From assembly GCA_029261155.1 (NCBI GenBank), contig JAJDBW010000024.1:1-64000 (forward strand): a DNA stretch of 64,000 bases, given 5' to 3'. A program made the translations under genes and the position numbers. Below the pieces are notes generated by a model. The model saw only the letters and a list, made by a program, of their open reading frames with translations, did no database searches and was not told where the DNA came from. Below are positions 2,777 through 63,889 of this stretch, in pieces. Positions within the stretch are counted from its first letter, which is position 1. Each line of letters opens with the position of its first letter. This DNA comes from Nitrospirota bacterium. Its GTDB lineage: Bacteria > Nitrospirota > Nitrospiria > SBBL01 > JAADHI01.

Positions 2777-3259
2777 ATGAACCGTATTGTTCGCGCCATT
2801 CAATTCGATCCCACAGTCTATTCGGAAATTGCCGCCGACAAAGGCGGTCTGTTTCAAGCCCTTCTCATAGCGGTCCTATCGAGCGTGGCCACCGGTATCG
2901 GCAGTGCCAAAGGCGACCCCCAACAAATTCCCTACCTCATCATGACCGCATTTATCGGTTGGCTTATCTGGATGGTCACCACACTGGTTATCGGGACCCT
3001 GATTCCAGGCCCAGATAGCCAACCCAACCTTGGTACTATCATCCGCGTGGGCGGGATCGCCAGCGCACCCGGTCTGCTCCGCTTGATCGCCTACCTACCG
3101 CCCTTCTCTGTCATTGCTCCAGCCGGCGCCATGATTTGGATGTTCGCCACCACCGCCATCGCCTTCCAGCAAGCGTTTCAATTTAAAAATCTCTCCCGGG
3201 CTTTGGGTGTGACCCTCATCGGGTGGATCCTTTATCAATGGTTCTATTTTAAGATGTAA
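2777..3259 (+). CDS. Yip1-family membrane protein
   Basis: Multiple hydrophobic segments and a Yip1-like layout. Confidence 0.6.
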   Translation: MNRIVRAIQFDPTVYSEIAADKGGLFQALLIAVLSSVATGIGSAKGDPQQIPYLIMTAFIGWLIWMVTTLVIGTLIPGPDSQPNLGTIIRVGGIASAPGLLRLIAYLPPFSVIAPAGAMIWMFATTAIAFQQAFQFKNLSRALGVTLIGWILYQWFYFKM

Positions 3260-42155: not shown

Positions 42156-43643
42156 TCAGTGTACCTCCCTCACCAAACGAATGCCGATGAACTGATTGAT
42201 CTTATTACTGTTGCTAAATTCTTCGAATAAAAAGCCGTCCAGGGTCGCGCCCGTCTGCCAACCGCCGTCCCAAGTCATACTCTTTGCAAGAGAACCCCCG
42301 GCGTGAATTCGATGGTGGCGATTAAAATCCCAGCAGTCGGTCACCGCGCCGCCGTTTTTCGTCTGCGTCTGAAAACCTTCTTGATCCTTGGGCGGGCAAT
42401 CCAAAGTCCATTCCGACACATTGCCCACCATGTCGTAAAGCCCCCAGGGATTAGGCGGATATTGACCGATGGGCCTTAAATCGTCCACGTAACAACTGTG
42501 GTTTTTATAGGTCGGCAATTCCGTGCAGAGGTTTCCCATGTGATAAATATTTTTATAAATTTTATTGTCGTACAAAATATTGCTGAAACCGCGCTCCCAA
42601 TAGAAATCGCCATTTTCCCCCGCCAAGGCCGCATACTGCCATTCGGCGTGGCTGGGCAAGCGGTAATTGACCCCCGTGACTTCGGAGATCCATTCCGCAT
42701 AGTGTTGTGCGTCTTCGAAAGACACCCAAAAAACCGGCAGGACTATACCCTCTTGATAGCGACGCGGCGTCGGACAGGGATTCTCATCGGCACCCCAACT
42801 CAATCGATAAGCCGGTCGGTCCGTCGGCAAACAGCCCTTGAATTTTTCTTCCCGCCCTGTACTGCGGGCGAATAGATTATATTGCTCGAAGGAAATCTCG
42901 TATTTCGAAATTGAAAAGCGCTTCACGTGAATTTTATGCCGCACACGATGGTTGCCCTTTGAATCGCGCTTTTGATTGCCGTAAAGAAAATCCCCATCGG
43001 GAACAGGAACCATAACAATCCCCTCGCTGCCGTCGATCAAAACATCTTTGAATTCCCTGAGATCACTGATCATGCGAGAGCGGTTGTTGTTGATGATCAT
43101 TTGTTTTTGAATGGCATCGACCTTGCCGATAATAATCTTCGATCGCTCCGCGCCAAGCGTCGCTTGCTTTTCGACCGCCTCGACCTGGCCCATCATTTCC
43201 TGATGCTGGGCCAGCAACTGCGTCCGTAATTGAGCGATATTGGCCTCGACTGATTTCCTGAGACCCTTAATCTGCCCATAAAGCTGAGACTGCTGCTGCG
43301 CGTTGAGCTGCTCGATGTGCCGAAAAAATTCCTGCTGAACCCTTGGGTTTTCGGCGACCAGTTTCGCGGCAAGCTGGGCTTGAATGTCGTCGGGCTTTTC
43401 TTTTTCTTCCTTCAAGGCGATGAGCTCAGGGGCCTGCTTGATCACGGCATCAATAAGGGGGGCGCAGATCAATTTCAACACGACCTCTCCGCCGATTTCC
43501 TTGCAAAGCCGTTTGGGCCCGAGTTCCGCGCTGTTTTTTAAAATCTCTTTCCCGACATCCAAAGCGAATTGTTCTAATGAAAAAGCCGCCGAGGCGCGGG
43601 CCGGGAAAAGAAAGAGCAATAGGACGATGAGGTAGCGTACCAT
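42156..43643 (-). CDS. Secreted FGE/SUMF1-fold protein
   Basis: MVPVPDGDFLYGN, WGLYDMVGNVSEWTLD, HAGGS. Confidence 0.82.
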   Translation of the reverse strand: MVRYLIVLLLFLFPARASAAFSLEQFALDVGKEILKNSAELGPKRLCKEIGGEVVLKLICAPLIDAVIKQAPELIALKEEKEKPDDIQAQLAAKLVAENPRVQQEFFRHIEQLNAQQQSQLYGQIKGLRKSVEANIAQLRTQLLAQHQEMMGQVEAVEKQATLGAERSKIIIGKVDAIQKQMIINNNRSRMISDLREFKDVLIDGSEGIVMVPVPDGDFLYGNQKRDSKGNHRVRHKIHVKRFSISKYEISFEQYNLFARSTGREEKFKGCLPTDRPAYRLSWGADENPCPTPRRYQEGIVLPVFWVSFEDAQHYAEWISEVTGVNYRLPSHAEWQYAALAGENGDFYWERGFSNILYDNKIYKNIYHMGNLCTELPTYKNHSCYVDDLRPIGQYPPNPWGLYDMVGNVSEWTLDCPPKDQEGFQTQTKNGGAVTDCWDFNRHHRIHAGGSLAKSMTWDGGWQTGATLDGFLFEEFSNSNKINQFIGIRLVREVH

Positions 43644-49756: not shown

Positions 49757-50491
49757 TTAGTCGAAGATTTCTCCCCCGCTGATTTTTCTCCGTTTTTTCT
49801 CCCGATCGAGCGGGTGATCATAGCCGGGCAAGATGGTCCCATCGACAGAGTAGGGCCCAATACGGTTCCATGTCCCTCGCTCGGCCTGGCTGAGATACTC
49901 CATTTCCAAAATCGCCTTAGGGCTTTTGTAGCCGTATTTATAGGGAATGATCATTCTTAAGGGAAATCCATGCTCGTCACTCAGCGGCGCGGCGTTCATA
50001 CTGTGCACCAGGAGGCTGCGCGTGTGGTGAAGATCATCCAAGGGAAGGTATTCGATGTAGGTATCGGCGCAACGGAAAAGAACGCCAACGGCATCGGGCA
50101 GGGGTCGAACAATCGCATCGAGCGCGGCAAGACGAAAACCCTCCCACTCCGCCTTGGCCGACCAGCATTCAACGCATTTTATACGGGAAACTTGCGTTTG
50201 CCTTGGGAGTTTTTTAAGGACCTCCAGGCTAAAGTTTTGTGGGTTTTCGCAGGCGCCGCTCACTTTCAATCGCCAGGATTCGCCCTCTATTCTTTTAAAC
50301 GATTTATAGTATTGGATGTAGAAATGCTTATACTTCCCCTCGCGAGTTTTCCCGACATACTCCGAACCCCGCCAAAAATTGAAGCCCGCAAGTGCCTTAG
50401 TCGGCCGAAACCAAGAAACACCGAGAGCCGCCAGGGCGATAATAATACGTCGGATAAAACTTCGACGTCCCATTTTATTTAACGGACGCAT
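49757..50491 (-). CDS. SUOX-fold molybdopterin-dependent oxidoreductase (YedY/MsrP-like)
   Basis: Tat-like GRRSFIRR leader; IKCVECWSAKAEWEG; NAAPLSDEHGFPLRMIIPYKYGYKSPKAI. Confidence 0.82.
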   Translation of the reverse strand: MRPLNKMGRRSFIRRIIIALAALGVSWFRPTKALAGFNFWRGSEYVGKTREGKYKHFYIQYYKSFKRIEGESWRLKVSGACENPQNFSLEVLKKLPRQTQVSRIKCVECWSAKAEWEGFRLAALDAIVRPLPDAVGVLFRCADTYIEYLPLDDLHHTRSLLVHSMNAAPLSDEHGFPLRMIIPYKYGYKSPKAILEMEYLSQAERGTWNRIGPYSVDGTILPGYDHPLDREKKRRKISGGEIFD

Positions 50492-51225
50492 CGAAAGCCC
50501 AGGAAGATATATCGCCGGTCCGCATCCACTTCAATCTGATCGGTGGTCCGACTGTATTCGTAATCCAGGTGCTGGTTCCACACCCCGCCCCGCGCGATTT
50601 TTTTACCCTTTGCCTCATCGGCAGTCCACTCCCAAACGGAAGCGGCCATGTCGCGCACACCAAAGGGTGAAACGTCTTTTTTGTTGAAGCCGACGACGCG
50701 CTTCACCATACCGGAAAAAGGGGGGTGGGGTTTATTTCGGTTCCGCTTTTCACCCCAGGGATAAACCCTGCCATCCGTGCCACGGGCTGCCTTTTCCCAC
50801 TCTGCCGCCGAGGGAAGTCTTTTGCCCAGGGCTTCGCAATAGCCCTGGGCTTCGCGCCAGCGAATGAAACTCACAGGATGTCGTTCTTTTCCCGCAGGAT
50901 AGACATAGGCAGGAAAAACGATTTTGAATTCCGCGTTCGACACTTCAAAGCGGTCAATCGTGTAGCGCTCGAGCACGACGATATTGTGATCACCCGACTC
51001 TGCTTTCTCCCCCATCAAAAAAGGACCTTCAGGGATTTCAATCATCTCTTCCGATATGGGAACAGGCAGCATGTCCGCCAAGGCAGGGCTCAAGTATGGG
51101 AAGTAACATAAGAACAAAGCGAGGGTGATCAAACATAAACCCGCCTTCACAACCGTTCTTTGACATACGGGTGAGAGACTCAAGTGATTATTTTTATATT
51201 TAAATAAAATGGCGTGGGATTGCAT
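50479..51225 (-). CDS. FGE/SUMF1-fold protein, translationally coupled to the molybdoenzyme gene
   Basis: MIEIPEGPFLMGEKAESGD, GKRLPSAAEWEKAARGTDGRVYPWG, ARGGVW; overlaps the downstream gene. Confidence 0.85.
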   Translation of the reverse strand: MQSHAILFKYKNNHLSLSPVCQRTVVKAGLCLITLALFLCYFPYLSPALADMLPVPISEEMIEIPEGPFLMGEKAESGDHNIVVLERYTIDRFEVSNAEFKIVFPAYVYPAGKERHPVSFIRWREAQGYCEALGKRLPSAAEWEKAARGTDGRVYPWGEKRNRNKPHPPFSGMVKRVVGFNKKDVSPFGVRDMAASVWEWTADEAKGKKIARGGVWNQHLDYEYSRTTDQIEVDADRRYIFLGFRCVR

Positions 51226-52069: not shown

Positions 52070-52927
52070 TTAGTGGGTTTGCAATTCGACCGCCGGCGTC
52101 TCAAAGTGACGCGGTTCCAAGGGTGTATTGAGGCGATAGTTCAATTGAAGATCGTGAAGGGGAATTTTAACTTGTTTCGAATCGAAGGCGAAGGAAATGG
52201 AAACGGTCTTTTCAGGATTGATACTCACCTCCTGCGCTTGAATCTTCATATGCGGATGCCAAGCGATAACATAGTAAGTTCCGGGCGGTACATCAGAAAT
52301 ACGAAAGCCACCTTCGGCGTCTGTGACGGCAAAGTAGGGATTGCCTACGGCCATGCCCCAGGACTGCATGTAGTCATGCACACCGCACTGCGTTCGGAAA
52401 AGATAGTGGCTTTTTCTAAACTGAATCATTCGCATGACATTCGCCATAGGCGTGGTCGGCTTATTGAACATGGGGAAGGTGTATTCGCCCTTCATGGTGT
52501 AACCTTGAATGTCGTGGGCCACGGGATCCTTACTCGATATGGCAATGGGATGATGATTTCGAACGGGTGTCACAAAGGGTGTAATTTGACAATTTTCAAT
52601 ATCGATACGCGGGGTAAAATCAAAGGGCTTTCCTCGTTTTACGCCCACAATCGCAACGATCGCATTTTGTAAACCGCCGTCTTGGGAAACCTCAAATTCT
52701 TTTAATAAGCGGTTCCCCTTCCCATCCGAAATACGCATGCAATAATCAATATTCGGTGAGAAGATCAGATGAAAAATGCGAGTCGGAGGAGTCGTTCCCT
52801 CCAAAAAAATACGACCAGTCAAGGTGCCGCCGGAGGAGACCGGACCTTCTTCATAAGTCCAGCCCCTTGATTGATTGACGCAGATCGAAAGCACGATCCA
52901 TATGCCAATAAAAACTTTTCTAAACAT
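52070..52927 (-). CDS. Secreted carboxypeptidase-regulatory-like / cupredoxin-like protein (paralogue 3)
   Basis: Signal peptide; PVAHDIQGYT...CGVHDYMQSWGMAVGNPYFAVTDAEGGFRISDVPPGTYYVIAWHPH. Confidence 0.8.
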   Translation of the reverse strand: MFRKVFIGIWIVLSICVNQSRGWTYEEGPVSSGGTLTGRIFLEGTTPPTRIFHLIFSPNIDYCMRISDGKGNRLLKEFEVSQDGGLQNAIVAIVGVKRGKPFDFTPRIDIENCQITPFVTPVRNHHPIAISSKDPVAHDIQGYTMKGEYTFPMFNKPTTPMANVMRMIQFRKSHYLFRTQCGVHDYMQSWGMAVGNPYFAVTDAEGGFRISDVPPGTYYVIAWHPHMKIQAQEVSINPEKTVSISFAFDSKQVKIPLHDLQLNYRLNTPLEPRHFETPAVELQTH

Positions 52928-53057
52928 TCAAAGGCCTCCAAAGGTATATATTAAACCATAGCACTTTTCATTGAAAGGGTTTAAAGATCGCGCTTCGATC
53001 GCTTGAAATAAGACATTAGGGGCATGAATCGCTTGGATCACTACACGCCGGTTGAAT

Positions 53058-53993
53058 TCAATCGATAATAATTCGATCTTCGCCCTCGTGAAGTCGGTGA
53101 TCCTCTGGGGTCGCCGGGCTGATTCGAAATTGTTTCTGTGTCTCGTAGGGCGGTCGCCTGACGAGTGCCCCGTCAAATTCGAAATCGAGACGCGTAACCT
53201 GCCCGCTATCCACGGTAATGCTTTTCTCATAGACCTTATAATGCGGATGCCAAATGCTTACGGTATAGTCGCCCGGCAACAAATCCGAAATTTTGTAGCG
53301 ACCATCTTTCGCGGTTTTTGCGTAATAAGGACTGTCTACGACAAAGCCCCAGCTCTGCATAAATTCATGCATCCCGCAGATCATCTGCGAAATGCGCTTG
53401 CCTTCCTGAAAATGAAGTCCCCCGCCCCTCGGTTCATCCGAGATGGGGAGCGGTGTATTCAATATAATATTACCTTTTTCGTTTTGAAAAACCTGTATAT
53501 TGTGAACGATGGGATCCTTGTTGATCATGGAGATGGGCTGGTGATTTTCTAAAATCGCCACATTCGGGTGTTCATGGTGAACGTGTCCATTTTCATCCAC
53601 AAAAAACTGTTCGTTTGCCGCCACATCGGCCGGGTGAAACATGCAATCGACCGCAACGAATTCTCTTTGAATCACCGGGAAGGGTTTGCCCTTCTCTACT
53701 TCCTGAACAAATACGACGGCTTCCCATAAACCACGATCTTTATCTACAATAAATTCATTGAGAAGCACATTGCCTTGACCATCGGATATTTTTTTACAAA
53801 ACGAACCGAAGGGATAGAGCACCAAGGCAAATACCCGAGGTTCCGGGATTGGCCCCCGCAAAGTCACTTTTCCCTCGATCGAACCGCCTCGACTCACATC
53901 CACCTCCTCGTAACTATAAACGAGCGCTGGAAGTGTGAAGAACAGTCCCACCAAAAGAAAAGAGGCGACTCCCTTCAGAAAAAAAGGCTTCAT
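53058..53993 (-). CDS. Secreted carboxypeptidase-regulatory-like / cupredoxin-like protein (paralogue 2)
   Basis: PIVHNIQVFQ...MICGMHEFMQSWGFVVDSPYYAKTAKDGRYKISDLLPGDYTVSIWHPH; SD GGGAGG before ATG at 53993. Confidence 0.82.
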   Translation of the reverse strand: MKPFFLKGVASFLLVGLFFTLPALVYSYEEVDVSRGGSIEGKVTLRGPIPEPRVFALVLYPFGSFCKKISDGQGNVLLNEFIVDKDRGLWEAVVFVQEVEKGKPFPVIQREFVAVDCMFHPADVAANEQFFVDENGHVHHEHPNVAILENHQPISMINKDPIVHNIQVFQNEKGNIILNTPLPISDEPRGGGLHFQEGKRISQMICGMHEFMQSWGFVVDSPYYAKTAKDGRYKISDLLPGDYTVSIWHPHYKVYEKSITVDSGQVTRLDFEFDGALVRRPPYETQKQFRISPATPEDHRLHEGEDRIIID

Positions 53994-54044
53994 TGAATCG
54001 CCTCCCTTCATCCGAATAGATATAAAGTTCAAGCGAATAAACAA

Positions 54045-54078
54045 GACGGGGCAGGCGTCAAAAGCCTCCTGCCCCGTC
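54045..54078. repeat. Intergenic GC-rich hairpin between cupredoxin-like genes
   Basis: GACGGGGCAGG ... CCTGCCCCGTC. Confidence 0.75.
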
Positions 54079-54209
54079 TAAAAAAATAATACCGAATTCG
54101 TTTTAGAACCTAAGAATGAATATCGAGATAAGTGACAAGGCCGCTTTAGCCTCATTAAATCATTGTAATTTTTCTTCGTGACGCCTGAACCGAAAGAAGT
54201 CGTTTTGCT

Positions 54210-55178
54210 TTAATCGATGATGAGCCTGTCGTCTCCTTCTTTCAGTTTATGGTCTTCCGGCGTTGCAGGACTAATACGAAATTGTTTTTGTTTTTCGTAC
54301 TCTGGGCGTTTAACCAGATCGGCATTAAACTCGAAATTGACTCGAGTCTCTTTATTGGCTTTGATCGTCACCTCTTTCTCAAAAACCTTAAACTGTGGAT
54401 GCCAAAAAGCAACCGTGTAGGTTCCAGGCAAGAGTCCGTCGATAGTGAAGGTGCCATCTTTTGCCGTCTTTGCGTAATAGGGATTATCGACGACAAATCC
54501 CCAACTTTGCATAAACTCGTGCATGCCGCAAATCATCTGAGAAATTCGTTTCCCTTTTTTATAGTGCAAAACACCGCCTCGGGGTTCGTAGGCGACAGTC
54601 GCGACGCCCGGCTTGGTTTTTTTTGCCGGTGGCAGCGGTGTATTCAAAATAATATTTCCTCTTTCGTTCTGAAAGACCTGAATATTGTGAATGATGGGAT
54701 CCCGGTTCACCATGTTCATCTTCTGGTGATTGTGCAAGATAGAAACATTTGGATGCTCATGTCGCATTTGCCCTTGCTCGTCAACCATGAACATTTCATT
54801 ATCCGCCACATCGGCGGGATGGAACATGCAATCTGTCGCGACAAAATCGGCGACTTGGGGGCGATAAGGCTTTCCCTTTTCTACGGCCTTTACGGCAACA
54901 ACAGCCTCCCAGAGTCCTCTGTCTTTTGATACGATAAATTCCTTCAGACGAACATTCCCCTCGCCATCCGATATCTTCTTACAAAAAGGCCCAAAAGGAT
55001 AGAGCACCAGGGCAAAAACCCTTGCGGAAGGTTTTTCACCCCTTAAGGTGACTTTTCCGGTAATGGCGCCGCCTTCACTCACATCAACCGTTTCGTATGC
55101 CTCAGCCACTGAAAGCAAAAACAAGCCAAGCAGACCGATGAGCAGAAGTCCTAGGCTTAATCTTCTCCGCTTTTTCAT
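54210..55178 (-). CDS. Secreted carboxypeptidase-regulatory-like / cupredoxin-like protein (paralogue 1)
   Basis: PIIHNIQVFQ...MICGMHEFMQSWGFVVDNPYYAKTAKDGTFTIDGLLPGTYTVAFWHPQ. Confidence 0.82.
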   Translation of the reverse strand: MKKRRRLSLGLLLIGLLGLFLLSVAEAYETVDVSEGGAITGKVTLRGEKPSARVFALVLYPFGPFCKKISDGEGNVRLKEFIVSKDRGLWEAVVAVKAVEKGKPYRPQVADFVATDCMFHPADVADNEMFMVDEQGQMRHEHPNVSILHNHQKMNMVNRDPIIHNIQVFQNERGNIILNTPLPPAKKTKPGVATVAYEPRGGVLHYKKGKRISQMICGMHEFMQSWGFVVDNPYYAKTAKDGTFTIDGLLPGTYTVAFWHPQFKVFEKEVTIKANKETRVNFEFNADLVKRPEYEKQKQFRISPATPEDHKLKEGDDRLIID

Positions 55179-55209: not shown

Positions 55210-55256
55210 AAAAAAAATCGGGGCGAAGGACAAGTTTGCACTCACCCTTGCCCCGA
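55210..55256 (-). terminator. Terminator between the multicopper oxidase and cupredoxin-like genes
   Basis: Minus strand TCGGGGCAAGG...CCTTCGCCCCGA followed by eight T. Confidence 0.75.
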
Positions 55257-55278
55257 CATCTTTAAAATAAAACTTCGC

Positions 55279-61814: not shown

Positions 61815-62237
61815 TTAATGGGCGACGCCCACTTTTACAGTAACACGACTTCCCGTGACCCGAGGCAGGTCCACGGTCATAATATAGGAATCGGCAACAA
61901 TTTTGAGCGTTTCTTGAGGATCGACATATTTATTGGCGACGTTTCGAGCAAGGGGCACGTTGTCCGCATCGAGCAGGTCGTAATAAAGATAAACCCGTTT
62001 CCTCACGTCTGAATGGTTTCGAACCGTTGCATTCCAAAAAAATTGCGTTTTGCCAATCCGATCCCAGACTTCGCCTGGATGCCAAGCATGCCCGATCACT
62101 TCGATCTTAGAGGCATCCCGATCCACAGCCTTGGCTTCGCTTGGGAAAATAGCGCTCATGGATACTAGCGCAACGAAGAGAAGCAGAAGACATGAGGGCA
62201 AAAAACAAAATCGATTTCGATGGAGATAACGGCTCAT
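61815..62237 (-). CDS. Secreted protein of unknown function
   Basis: Signal peptide; GHAWHPGEVWDRIGKTQFFWNATVRNHSD; 4-bp overlap with the upstream gene. Confidence 0.6.
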   Translation of the reverse strand: MSRYLHRNRFCFLPSCLLLLFVALVSMSAIFPSEAKAVDRDASKIEVIGHAWHPGEVWDRIGKTQFFWNATVRNHSDVRKRVYLYYDLLDADNVPLARNVANKYVDPQETLKIVADSYIMTVDLPRVTGSRVTVKVGVAH

Positions 62238-62815
62238 TTCCCCTCTGCCGCTTCGATCTGCTTGGTCCCCATGCCGAAGGGTAATTTCCGTTCTTTCAAG
62301 GTTGCAAGCTCCCGATAAACGGATTGGAAGGCTTCAGTGGAAAGCGCCGGGTCGCTTAGACGCGCCATGTCTTCAGGCGCCACCGGGACCCAGGCCAGCT
62401 CGGCTAAATCGGTCAATCCGATCCGAACCCAGTGGTGCGGTAAAAGTTCCTGCATCACTAAAAAACCGACACCGCGGTTATAGGTCGTCGCCGTCTTGAT
62501 GGCCAACCGTCCCTCTTCTGCCGAAACACACTTTCCAATGGCAAGGTTCATCGGTGGATCCAAAAAAGGAAAGAAGGCCAGCCGAACTTTCATCGTTTCA
62601 TTCGATGCCTTCACTTCCTCTCGGATCTCCGCCTTTTGCTTCTTATACTTTTTTGAGAGTTTCAGATCAATTGTCGTAAGCACCTCGCGGTTTCCCGCCG
62701 CATTACAATCGTAAACTTCTTTTTCAAAAGCGCCGGCCACCTCGCTGAAGAGCGCGAAAAAGCTTATGCTTAGTATTAGGATTCGACCCCACTGGGGACG
62801 GGATAAGGACATCAT
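62234..62815 (-). CDS. Secreted protein of unknown function
   Basis: Signal peptide; translationally coupled to 61815-62237. Confidence 0.6.
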   Translation of the reverse strand: MMSLSRPQWGRILILSISFFALFSEVAGAFEKEVYDCNAAGNREVLTTIDLKLSKKYKKQKAEIREEVKASNETMKVRLAFFPFLDPPMNLAIGKCVSAEEGRLAIKTATTYNRGVGFLVMQELLPHHWVRIGLTDLAELAWVPVAPEDMARLSDPALSTEAFQSVYRELATLKERKLPFGMGTKQIEAAEGK

Positions 62816-62872
62816 GTTCTCTTTACTCCTTGCGATTCCATCGCGTTAAAACTTTTACTGTTCGCATCCAGA

Positions 62873-63889
62873 TCACGATCCCTTCCGGGATGGCGCCATG
62901 GCCTTCAAACGATTCAGGTAATCTTGTGCCGCCTTGTTTTTGGGGTCGAGTTCCAACACCCGCTCAAAGCTTTCCCGCGCGCGCATCTTGAGGGTCGCGC
63001 GGTCTTCGGCGTTTGAAAGTTCCGCCGCCAACAGAATCTGGGCCTCTCCAAGCGCGAAATAAAGTTCCGGATCGTCTAATCGTACCTTTGAAAGGGTGAC
63101 GTACTCTTTGACCGCATCCATGTAGAGCTTTGCGCGAAAATAAAGCTTGGCCAAACGCTCACGGGCATCCGATTCATTCGGATCGGCTTCGAGCATCATC
63201 TTCCACTGCTCGGCGGCCTCGCCAAATTTCCCTTTTTTTTCGTAAATCAATCCCAGATTATAGCGAGCCTCCAAGTAAGACGTGTCTTTTTCGAGGGCGA
63301 TCTCATAAGCCCGTTCGGCCTCATCGTTTTTTCCCATCGCGAAGTATATATTCCCTATGCCGACCTTCACGATGGGAATATCAGGAACCAATGCATCCGC
63401 CTGCAAATAGGCATCTAAAGCCTCTTTCCTTTTTTCCAAGCGAACATAAGCATGCCCTAGAGAAATAAAACCATGTTCATCCTTCGGCGCCAACACCGTG
63501 ACTCTCTGGAACTCCCGAACCGCCGAGTCCAGATCATTACTTGCGAGATAGAATCGCCCCAACCAATAATGAACCGTCGGGTTTTTTGGGTGTTCCCGAA
63601 CCAAGCCTTTATAAAACGAAATGCCAAGGCGCCCTCTGCGCATCGCCAAATAAGTGCGGTGGAGGGCAAGATGGTATTTATGGTTATCGATGCTCAGCTT
63701 CACGGCCTGGGCCAATTCAACAACGGCATCGTTGAAACGGCGTTGCTTATTCAGGTCCAGTCCCGCTTCGAAAAAGGCCTGGGCCTGTTCTTCAGGCGTC
63801 GCCGCATGTGAGGTGCCCGAAATAGAAAAACAAACCACGATCAATACGACCAAGCCGATCTGAGCAAAAAGAGCGCGCGCTTTTCTCAT
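62873..63889 (-). CDS. Secreted TPR-repeat protein
   Basis: Signal peptide and multiple tandem TPRs (YLEARYNLGLIYEKKGKFGEAAEQWKMMLEADP). Confidence 0.9.
   Translation of the reverse strand: MRKARALFAQIGLVVLIVVCFSISGTSHAATPEEQAQAFFEAGLDLNKQRRFNDAVVELAQAVKLSIDNHKYHLALHRTYLAMRRGRLGISFYKGLVREHPKNPTVHYWLGRFYLASNDLDSAVREFQRVTVLAPKDEHGFISLGHAYVRLEKRKEALDAYLQADALVPDIPIVKVGIGNIYFAMGKNDEAERAYEIALEKDTSYLEARYNLGLIYEKKGKFGEAAEQWKMMLEADPNESDARERLAKLYFRAKLYMDAVKEYVTLSKVRLDDPELYFALGEAQILLAAELSNAEDRATLKMRARESFERVLELDPKNKAAQDYLNRLKAMAPSRKGS

Follow-up and report, generated by a model that had tools for sequence, protein, structure and literature searches.

What do three related, apparently exported proteins contribute when their genes lie directly behind that of one large multicopper oxidase (MCO)? 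The question is raised by a locus in the window, the whole 64,000-nucleotide stretch analysed here, from a genome of the class Nitrospiria whose relatives in the collection include Ca. Manganitrophus, Ca. Troglogloeales and other Nitrospirota. On the minus strand, the order of transcription is MCO (60240-55279, 1653 aa), LONG1 (55178-54210, 322 aa), LONG2 (53993-53058) and SHORT (52927-52070, 285 aa). The ORF of LONG1, its motifs, the AF2 model and Foldseek matches mark it as a predicted exported protein combining a cupredoxin with a CarboxypepD_reg domain, and the N-termini of all three copies look like signal peptides. With 69% and 37% identity to LONG1, LONG2 and SHORT are clear paralogues of it, as the initial annotation had stated. 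The start of LONG2 was corrected: the mechanical ORF (53058-54044) opens at TTG 54044, and the true start is most likely ATG 53993, because a ribosome-binding site, AAGGGAGG, precedes it. Further 3' of SHORT follow genes for a zinc-ribbon protein, an FGE-sulfatase-domain protein and an MsrP/sulfite-oxidase-like molybdopterin protein.

Some neighbours of the locus recur elsewhere. Genes with the FGE-sulfatase domain (SUMF1-like; 50479-51225 and 42156-43643, minus strand, in the window) are found near the same arrangement at loci L110, L114 and L117, and as tandem pairs in Nitrospiraceae. Upstream of the MCO, 61815-63889 on the minus strand encodes a TPR protein and two others that match no Pfam family, and these recur close to the same arrangement in related genomes (L042, L057, L059, L098, L100).

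The motifs that had first drawn attention to the three proteins are readily found. A hydrophobic-flanked His occurs in every copy (DPIIHNIQVF, DPIVHNIQVF and DPVAHDIQGY), as do CG[MV]H[ED][FY]M and WHPQ or WHPH, while CMFHPADVA and the His-rich HEHPNV[SA]IL[HE]NHQ are confined to LONG1 and LONG2. Their placement within one carboxypeptidase-regulatory-like fold is right for the WHP motif, which belongs to the C-terminal domain, and wrong for the His, Cys, His and Met residues, which sit in a separate, N-terminal cupredoxin-like domain. PF13620 (CarboxypepD_reg) is limited to the C-terminal part (residues 234-283 in LONG1), with scores of 39.3, 40.7 and 34.1 bits, above the Pfam gathering cut-off of 32.3; sandwiches of this type are the only significant Pfam domains in the three proteins.

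Structure prediction, which the initial annotation had proposed as a check, supports a cupredoxin-like fold for the N-terminal domain. AF2 models built from the window sequences plus relatives reached a mean pLDDT of 85 for LONG1 and 71 for SHORT, and Foldseek against the PDB returned, at probability 1.00, the Nitrosopumilus purple cupredoxin 5fc9, amicyanin and plastocyanin. The scores are moderate: E 5e-5 with a target TM of 0.71 for the best SHORT match, and E 1e-3 to 7e-3 with target TM of 0.60-0.66 for LONG. The LONG list also includes poor adhesin and scaffoldin matches, as expected for a protein made of two sandwiches. The probability-1.00 matches are mostly cupredoxins. Sequence searches of the PDB matched the C-terminal beta-sandwich and not the cupredoxin part. 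The window proteins, two-domain and about 300 aa long, differ from amicyanin, plastocyanin and 5fc9 in architecture and in lacking detectable PDB sequence similarity to them, while sharing the predicted fold and the H...C-x2-H-x2-M ligand order.

Conservation points the same way. Across 70 aligned relatives that represent 10 families and include the three window copies, the LONG1 residues H164 (54687-54689, minus strand) and C217, H220 and M223 of the copper loop CGMHEFM (54510-54530, minus strand) are invariant (70/70), and so are two further Cys, C66 and C117. With four ligands and two Cys unchanged throughout, the pattern is far beyond chance. The type-1 copper order H...C-x2-H-x(2-5)-M is present in all 70, with a His-to-Cys spacing of 41-47 in most, and the C-x2-H-x2-M spacing of the window proteins is that of the amicyanin loop. 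In type-1 sites the Cys usually stands at a strand end and the His and Met in the following loop; in the LONG1 model strands 212-217 and 224-229 flank the copper loop, the Cys closing the first and the His and Met preceding the second. Sites with all four of these ligands, Met among them, and a buried-site loop typically belong to electron-transfer copper proteins and not to chaperones. The suggestion of a plausible type-1 ligand set thus gains from loop spacing, predicted fold and invariance alike, and on sequence and models a copper-protein reading of LONG1, LONG2 and SHORT is well supported; each N-terminal domain would hold a single copper in a type-1 site, and C66 and C117 probably form a disulfide.

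The copies differ chiefly outside this site. An insertion after Cys117 of LONG carries H120, H140 and H142 (35/36 each) and E/D128, and is absent from SHORT and from all Nitrospiraceae copies. The copper loops of LONG1 and LONG2 are identical, and the seven fixed differences between the two (105, 109, 126, 149 and 153-155) fall in or around the His-rich region. A difference in redox potential between LONG1 and LONG2 is therefore not indicated, and the proposal of distinct redox partners or potentials for this pair is not supported; among the window copies, clear divergence is limited to SHORT against LONG.

Nor does the phylogeny describe a simple tandem triplication: the genes are paralogues, as that term implied, yet they arose in two events. 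The LONG/SHORT split predates the separation of families in this group and is reflected in a clade to which SHORT belongs, whereas the LONG1/LONG2 duplication (clade supports 99/96 and 100/99) is confined to the window's own family and came after that family had separated from Manganitrophus, where each MCO has a single LONG. In Nitrospiraceae (L109, L113, L115, L116), another cupredoxin, distantly related and bearing the motif CDQHEFM, follows a HEAT-repeat gene, and the same gene order recurs in several genomes downstream of the MCO and its cupredoxins.

The oxidase itself, of the MnxG/MofA type, carries Pfam Cu-oxidase_3/_2 domains and is homologous to the solved MnxG 9bxa (E 4e-80). Against the NCBI MnxG equivalog model NF041487 it scores 133.5 bits, with the cut-off at 3100; by sequence it is an MnxG homologue and, by that cut-off, not the equivalog. 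None of the 53 class-member MCOs departs from the blue-copper motif HCHVAHHYVAGM (HCHxxxHxxxxM, residues 519-530), from HxxHxH at 442-447 or from HxH at 840 and 974, and a type-1 site together with the eight His of a trinuclear site can be recognised. The HxH motifs at 840 and 974 would then belong to the trinuclear centre, and the simplest reading is that this invariant set builds the O2-reducing site. Two N-terminal HxH motifs (234/236 and 283/285) are missing in about a quarter of the 53. The idea that some Nitrospiraceae MCOs have for this reason lost the O2 site was dropped, as the 840 and 974 motifs persist in all 53. Nitrospiraceae loci in which the N-terminal HxH is lost and every other motif kept are L110, L114, L117, L118, L120, L121 and L126-L128.

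How tightly the two kinds of gene are associated can be judged across the class. A family member lies directly downstream on the same strand of 29 of the 43 MCO genes with enough flanking sequence, and precedes three more; this fraction is indicative, since cupredoxin positions had partly guided the selection of the MCO panel. Roughly one MCO gene in three lacks an adjacent cupredoxin. Anchored on LONG instead, the loci with context show an MCO directly upstream in 24/37, downstream in 3/37 and none in 10/37, and those solitary LONG genes that the tree includes fall together in one subclade (L065-L068, L070-L073, L075). In Ca. Manganitrophus GAC4 the MCO-less LONG adjoins a PAS-GGDEF-EAL gene. 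Among 61 Nitrospirota genomes sampled across the phylum, the MCO is present in 11/11 Nitrospiria and 0/50 others, and cupredoxins of the MCO-linked kind (best E <1e-60) occur in the same 11 genomes; weaker relatives (1e-27 to 1e-36) appear in 6/50 genomes outside the class. An MCO with one to three cupredoxins is thus a class-wide Nitrospiria module. The co-occurrence with MofA-like MCOs that the initial annotation had wished to see examined takes the form of a close genetic link, and the opposite case, a family consistently found without a redox partner, is not what is seen, although a single LONG subclade stands alone. Maintenance of the arrangement across the class suggests an oxidase paired with its own copper electron carriers.

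Between the oxidase and its cupredoxins lies a second conserved feature. The MCO stop is followed immediately by a GC-rich stem-loop and T-run (55217-55257, minus strand; fold z -4.9), and the ribosome-binding site for the first cupredoxin comes just after it. Comparable hairpins occur at 37/44 MCO-cupredoxin junctions and 13/19 other MCO ends, against 2/195 control gene ends and 0/33 gaps between cupredoxins, figures whose contrast matters more than their exact values because the control ORFs are uncurated and the loci related. The consensus, GGGGCAGG..CCTGCCCC, shows compensatory changes in 11/13 pairs, counted on hairpins that had been picked for pairing. With a covariance model over 41 genomes, 36 of 37 sites scoring at least 34 bits lie at an MCO 3' end or inside the module; many of these were training members, and two stand at contig ends beside LONG, where the MCO is cut off. 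A second window hairpin, in the gap between LONG1 and LONG2 (54042-54081, minus strand; fold z -6.7), scores 41.5 bits with model R1, whose training set includes it.

In two of three genomes, a strict pattern search placed the hairpin nowhere but at MCO junctions, and Rfam gave no credible match to it. An operon-specific new class of RNA was nevertheless rejected: the covariance search also picked up ordinary gene-end terminators of similar sequence, mostly with lower scores but including a strong one in genome G011, and the element is for this reason called terminator-like. In the order to which the window belongs and in near relatives, the start codon of the first cupredoxin typically lies 15-29 nt beyond the stem, too close for a promoter to fit in between; the distance is 38 in the window and 36-118 in Nitrospiraceae. 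The likeliest role, predicted by analogy, is control of cupredoxin dose by read-through. Internal terminators set the stoichiometry of clostridial ABC importer operons, where likewise a stem-loop with a GC-rich stem and a T-run follows the first gene and the operon continues, although in that case the genes and the phylum are different, and termination in Nitrospiria is a prediction (PMC9045158).

Taken together, the locus may be pictured as a periplasmic copper redox module, and the reading towards which we lean, with a little more confidence than doubt, is that LONG1, LONG2 and SHORT are periplasmic electron carriers for the MCO. The oxidase would take electrons from a periplasmic substrate, with Mn(II), Fe(II), Cu(I) or another compound as candidates, at its blue-copper site and pass them to the O2-reducing trinuclear site. 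Through the predicted type-1 copper (His164, Cys217, His220 and Met223 in LONG1), the cupredoxins would shuttle electrons, one at a time, between the MCO and some other partner in the periplasm, their C-terminal beta-sandwich serving for docking or anchoring. The hairpin would let only part of the transcripts continue, so that the amount of cupredoxin differs from that of the oxidase. Electron transfer, its partner and its direction are, like the attenuation of the transcript, deduced. The LONG subclade without a nearby MCO and the third of MCOs without an adjacent cupredoxin count against the carrier reading, and gene adjacency would fit copper delivery or a subunit role equally well.

Such a role, with the proteins supplying the MCO with copper, keeping copper for it or acting as accessory subunits in the manner of MnxE/MnxF, and not as mobile carriers, seems to us rather unlikely. 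The position of the cupredoxin genes directly 3' of the MCO suits it, and the extra invariant His of LONG could hold exchangeable copper, but the H-C-H-M set and buried-site loop point to electron-transfer copper, and two or three different copies are retained per MCO. Its model is the Bacillus Mnx complex, in which MnxG (PDB 9bxa) requires the copper-binding MnxE and MnxF and forms a stable complex with them (PMC5622069). The window resembles it in joining a large homologous MCO to small partners predicted to bind copper; its partners, however, are cupredoxin-like and two-domain, whereas MnxE and MnxF reportedly resemble no characterised protein (PMC5622069), and no MnxE/MnxF chain was among the solved chains matched in the PDB sequence search. 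More improbable still would be that the three are structural beta-sandwich surface proteins whose C-x2-H-x2-M is no metal site: this suits their only Pfam domains and the adhesin and scaffoldin matches, but we give it very little credence in view of four ligands with the expected order, spacing and strand-loop position, invariant in 70/70, and of probability-1.00 matches that are mostly cupredoxins.

A different function has been suggested for related systems. The Nitrospina gracilis genome paper describes an MnxG-like MCO and two cupredoxin-like proteins in a nitrite-oxidation cluster of Nitrospina and Nitrospira (defluvii), and suggests a defence against ROS via Mn(III) (PMC3578206). By extension, the module could serve oxidative or copper stress defence without a role in energy conservation, the MCO making Mn(III) or oxidising Cu(I) and the cupredoxins buffering copper or electrons. 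Its occurrence in Nitrospiraceae, including nitrite oxidisers, shows that the module is not specific to manganese growth and agrees with this proposal, which we nonetheless regard as improbable: it leaves the retention of two conserved cupredoxin forms unexplained, and no stress genes recur beside the module.

The kind of cluster is therefore known, an MCO with two cupredoxin-like proteins having been reported in Nitrospira and Nitrospina, and the Nitrospiraceae MCO-cupredoxin pairs are homologous to that of the window. Unlike those clusters, the window has three cupredoxins and the His-rich LONG insertion, and no nitrite oxidoreductase genes adjoin. Distant homologues over at most 86% of LONG1, rhizobial proteins named "carboxypeptidase regulatory-like domain-containing protein", share a copper and respiration neighbourhood, one lying also near cbb3-type oxidase genes, but are shorter, single genes and adjoin an SCO-family protein, not an MCO. 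In the literature that could be searched, no paper tying this cupredoxin family by name to an MCO was found, and as far as that search goes the class-wide range, the two-domain LONG/SHORT set, the LONG insertion and the RNA hairpin are new.

Nitrospiria include nitrite oxidisers and cultured manganese-growing bacteria, and the class-wide presence of the module means that the MCO is not tied to manganese growth alone. For growth on manganese, it has been noted that a lithotrophic role of the MCOs would require electrons to be handed to a periplasmic carrier and not passed straight to O2 (PMC9040806); a cupredoxin family directly behind most such MCOs offers a concrete, testable candidate for that carrier. 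It is tempting to go further and to see in LONG a two-metal carrier, with a second site formed by H120, H140, H142 and the near-invariant E128, and in MCO, LONG and SHORT a dedicated route from the MCO substrate (e.g., Mn(II) or Fe(II)) to the respiratory chain, its stoichiometry set by the conserved hairpin, but this is a speculation that we hold to be doubtful. The paper on Manganitrophaceae reports two novel MCOs per genome and does not mention cupredoxins (PMC9040806). Three Ca. Manganitrophus loci (L090, L093, L051) have another MCO, about 51% identical to the main one, upstream of it, and a gene for a PQQ-type beta-propeller lies between the two.
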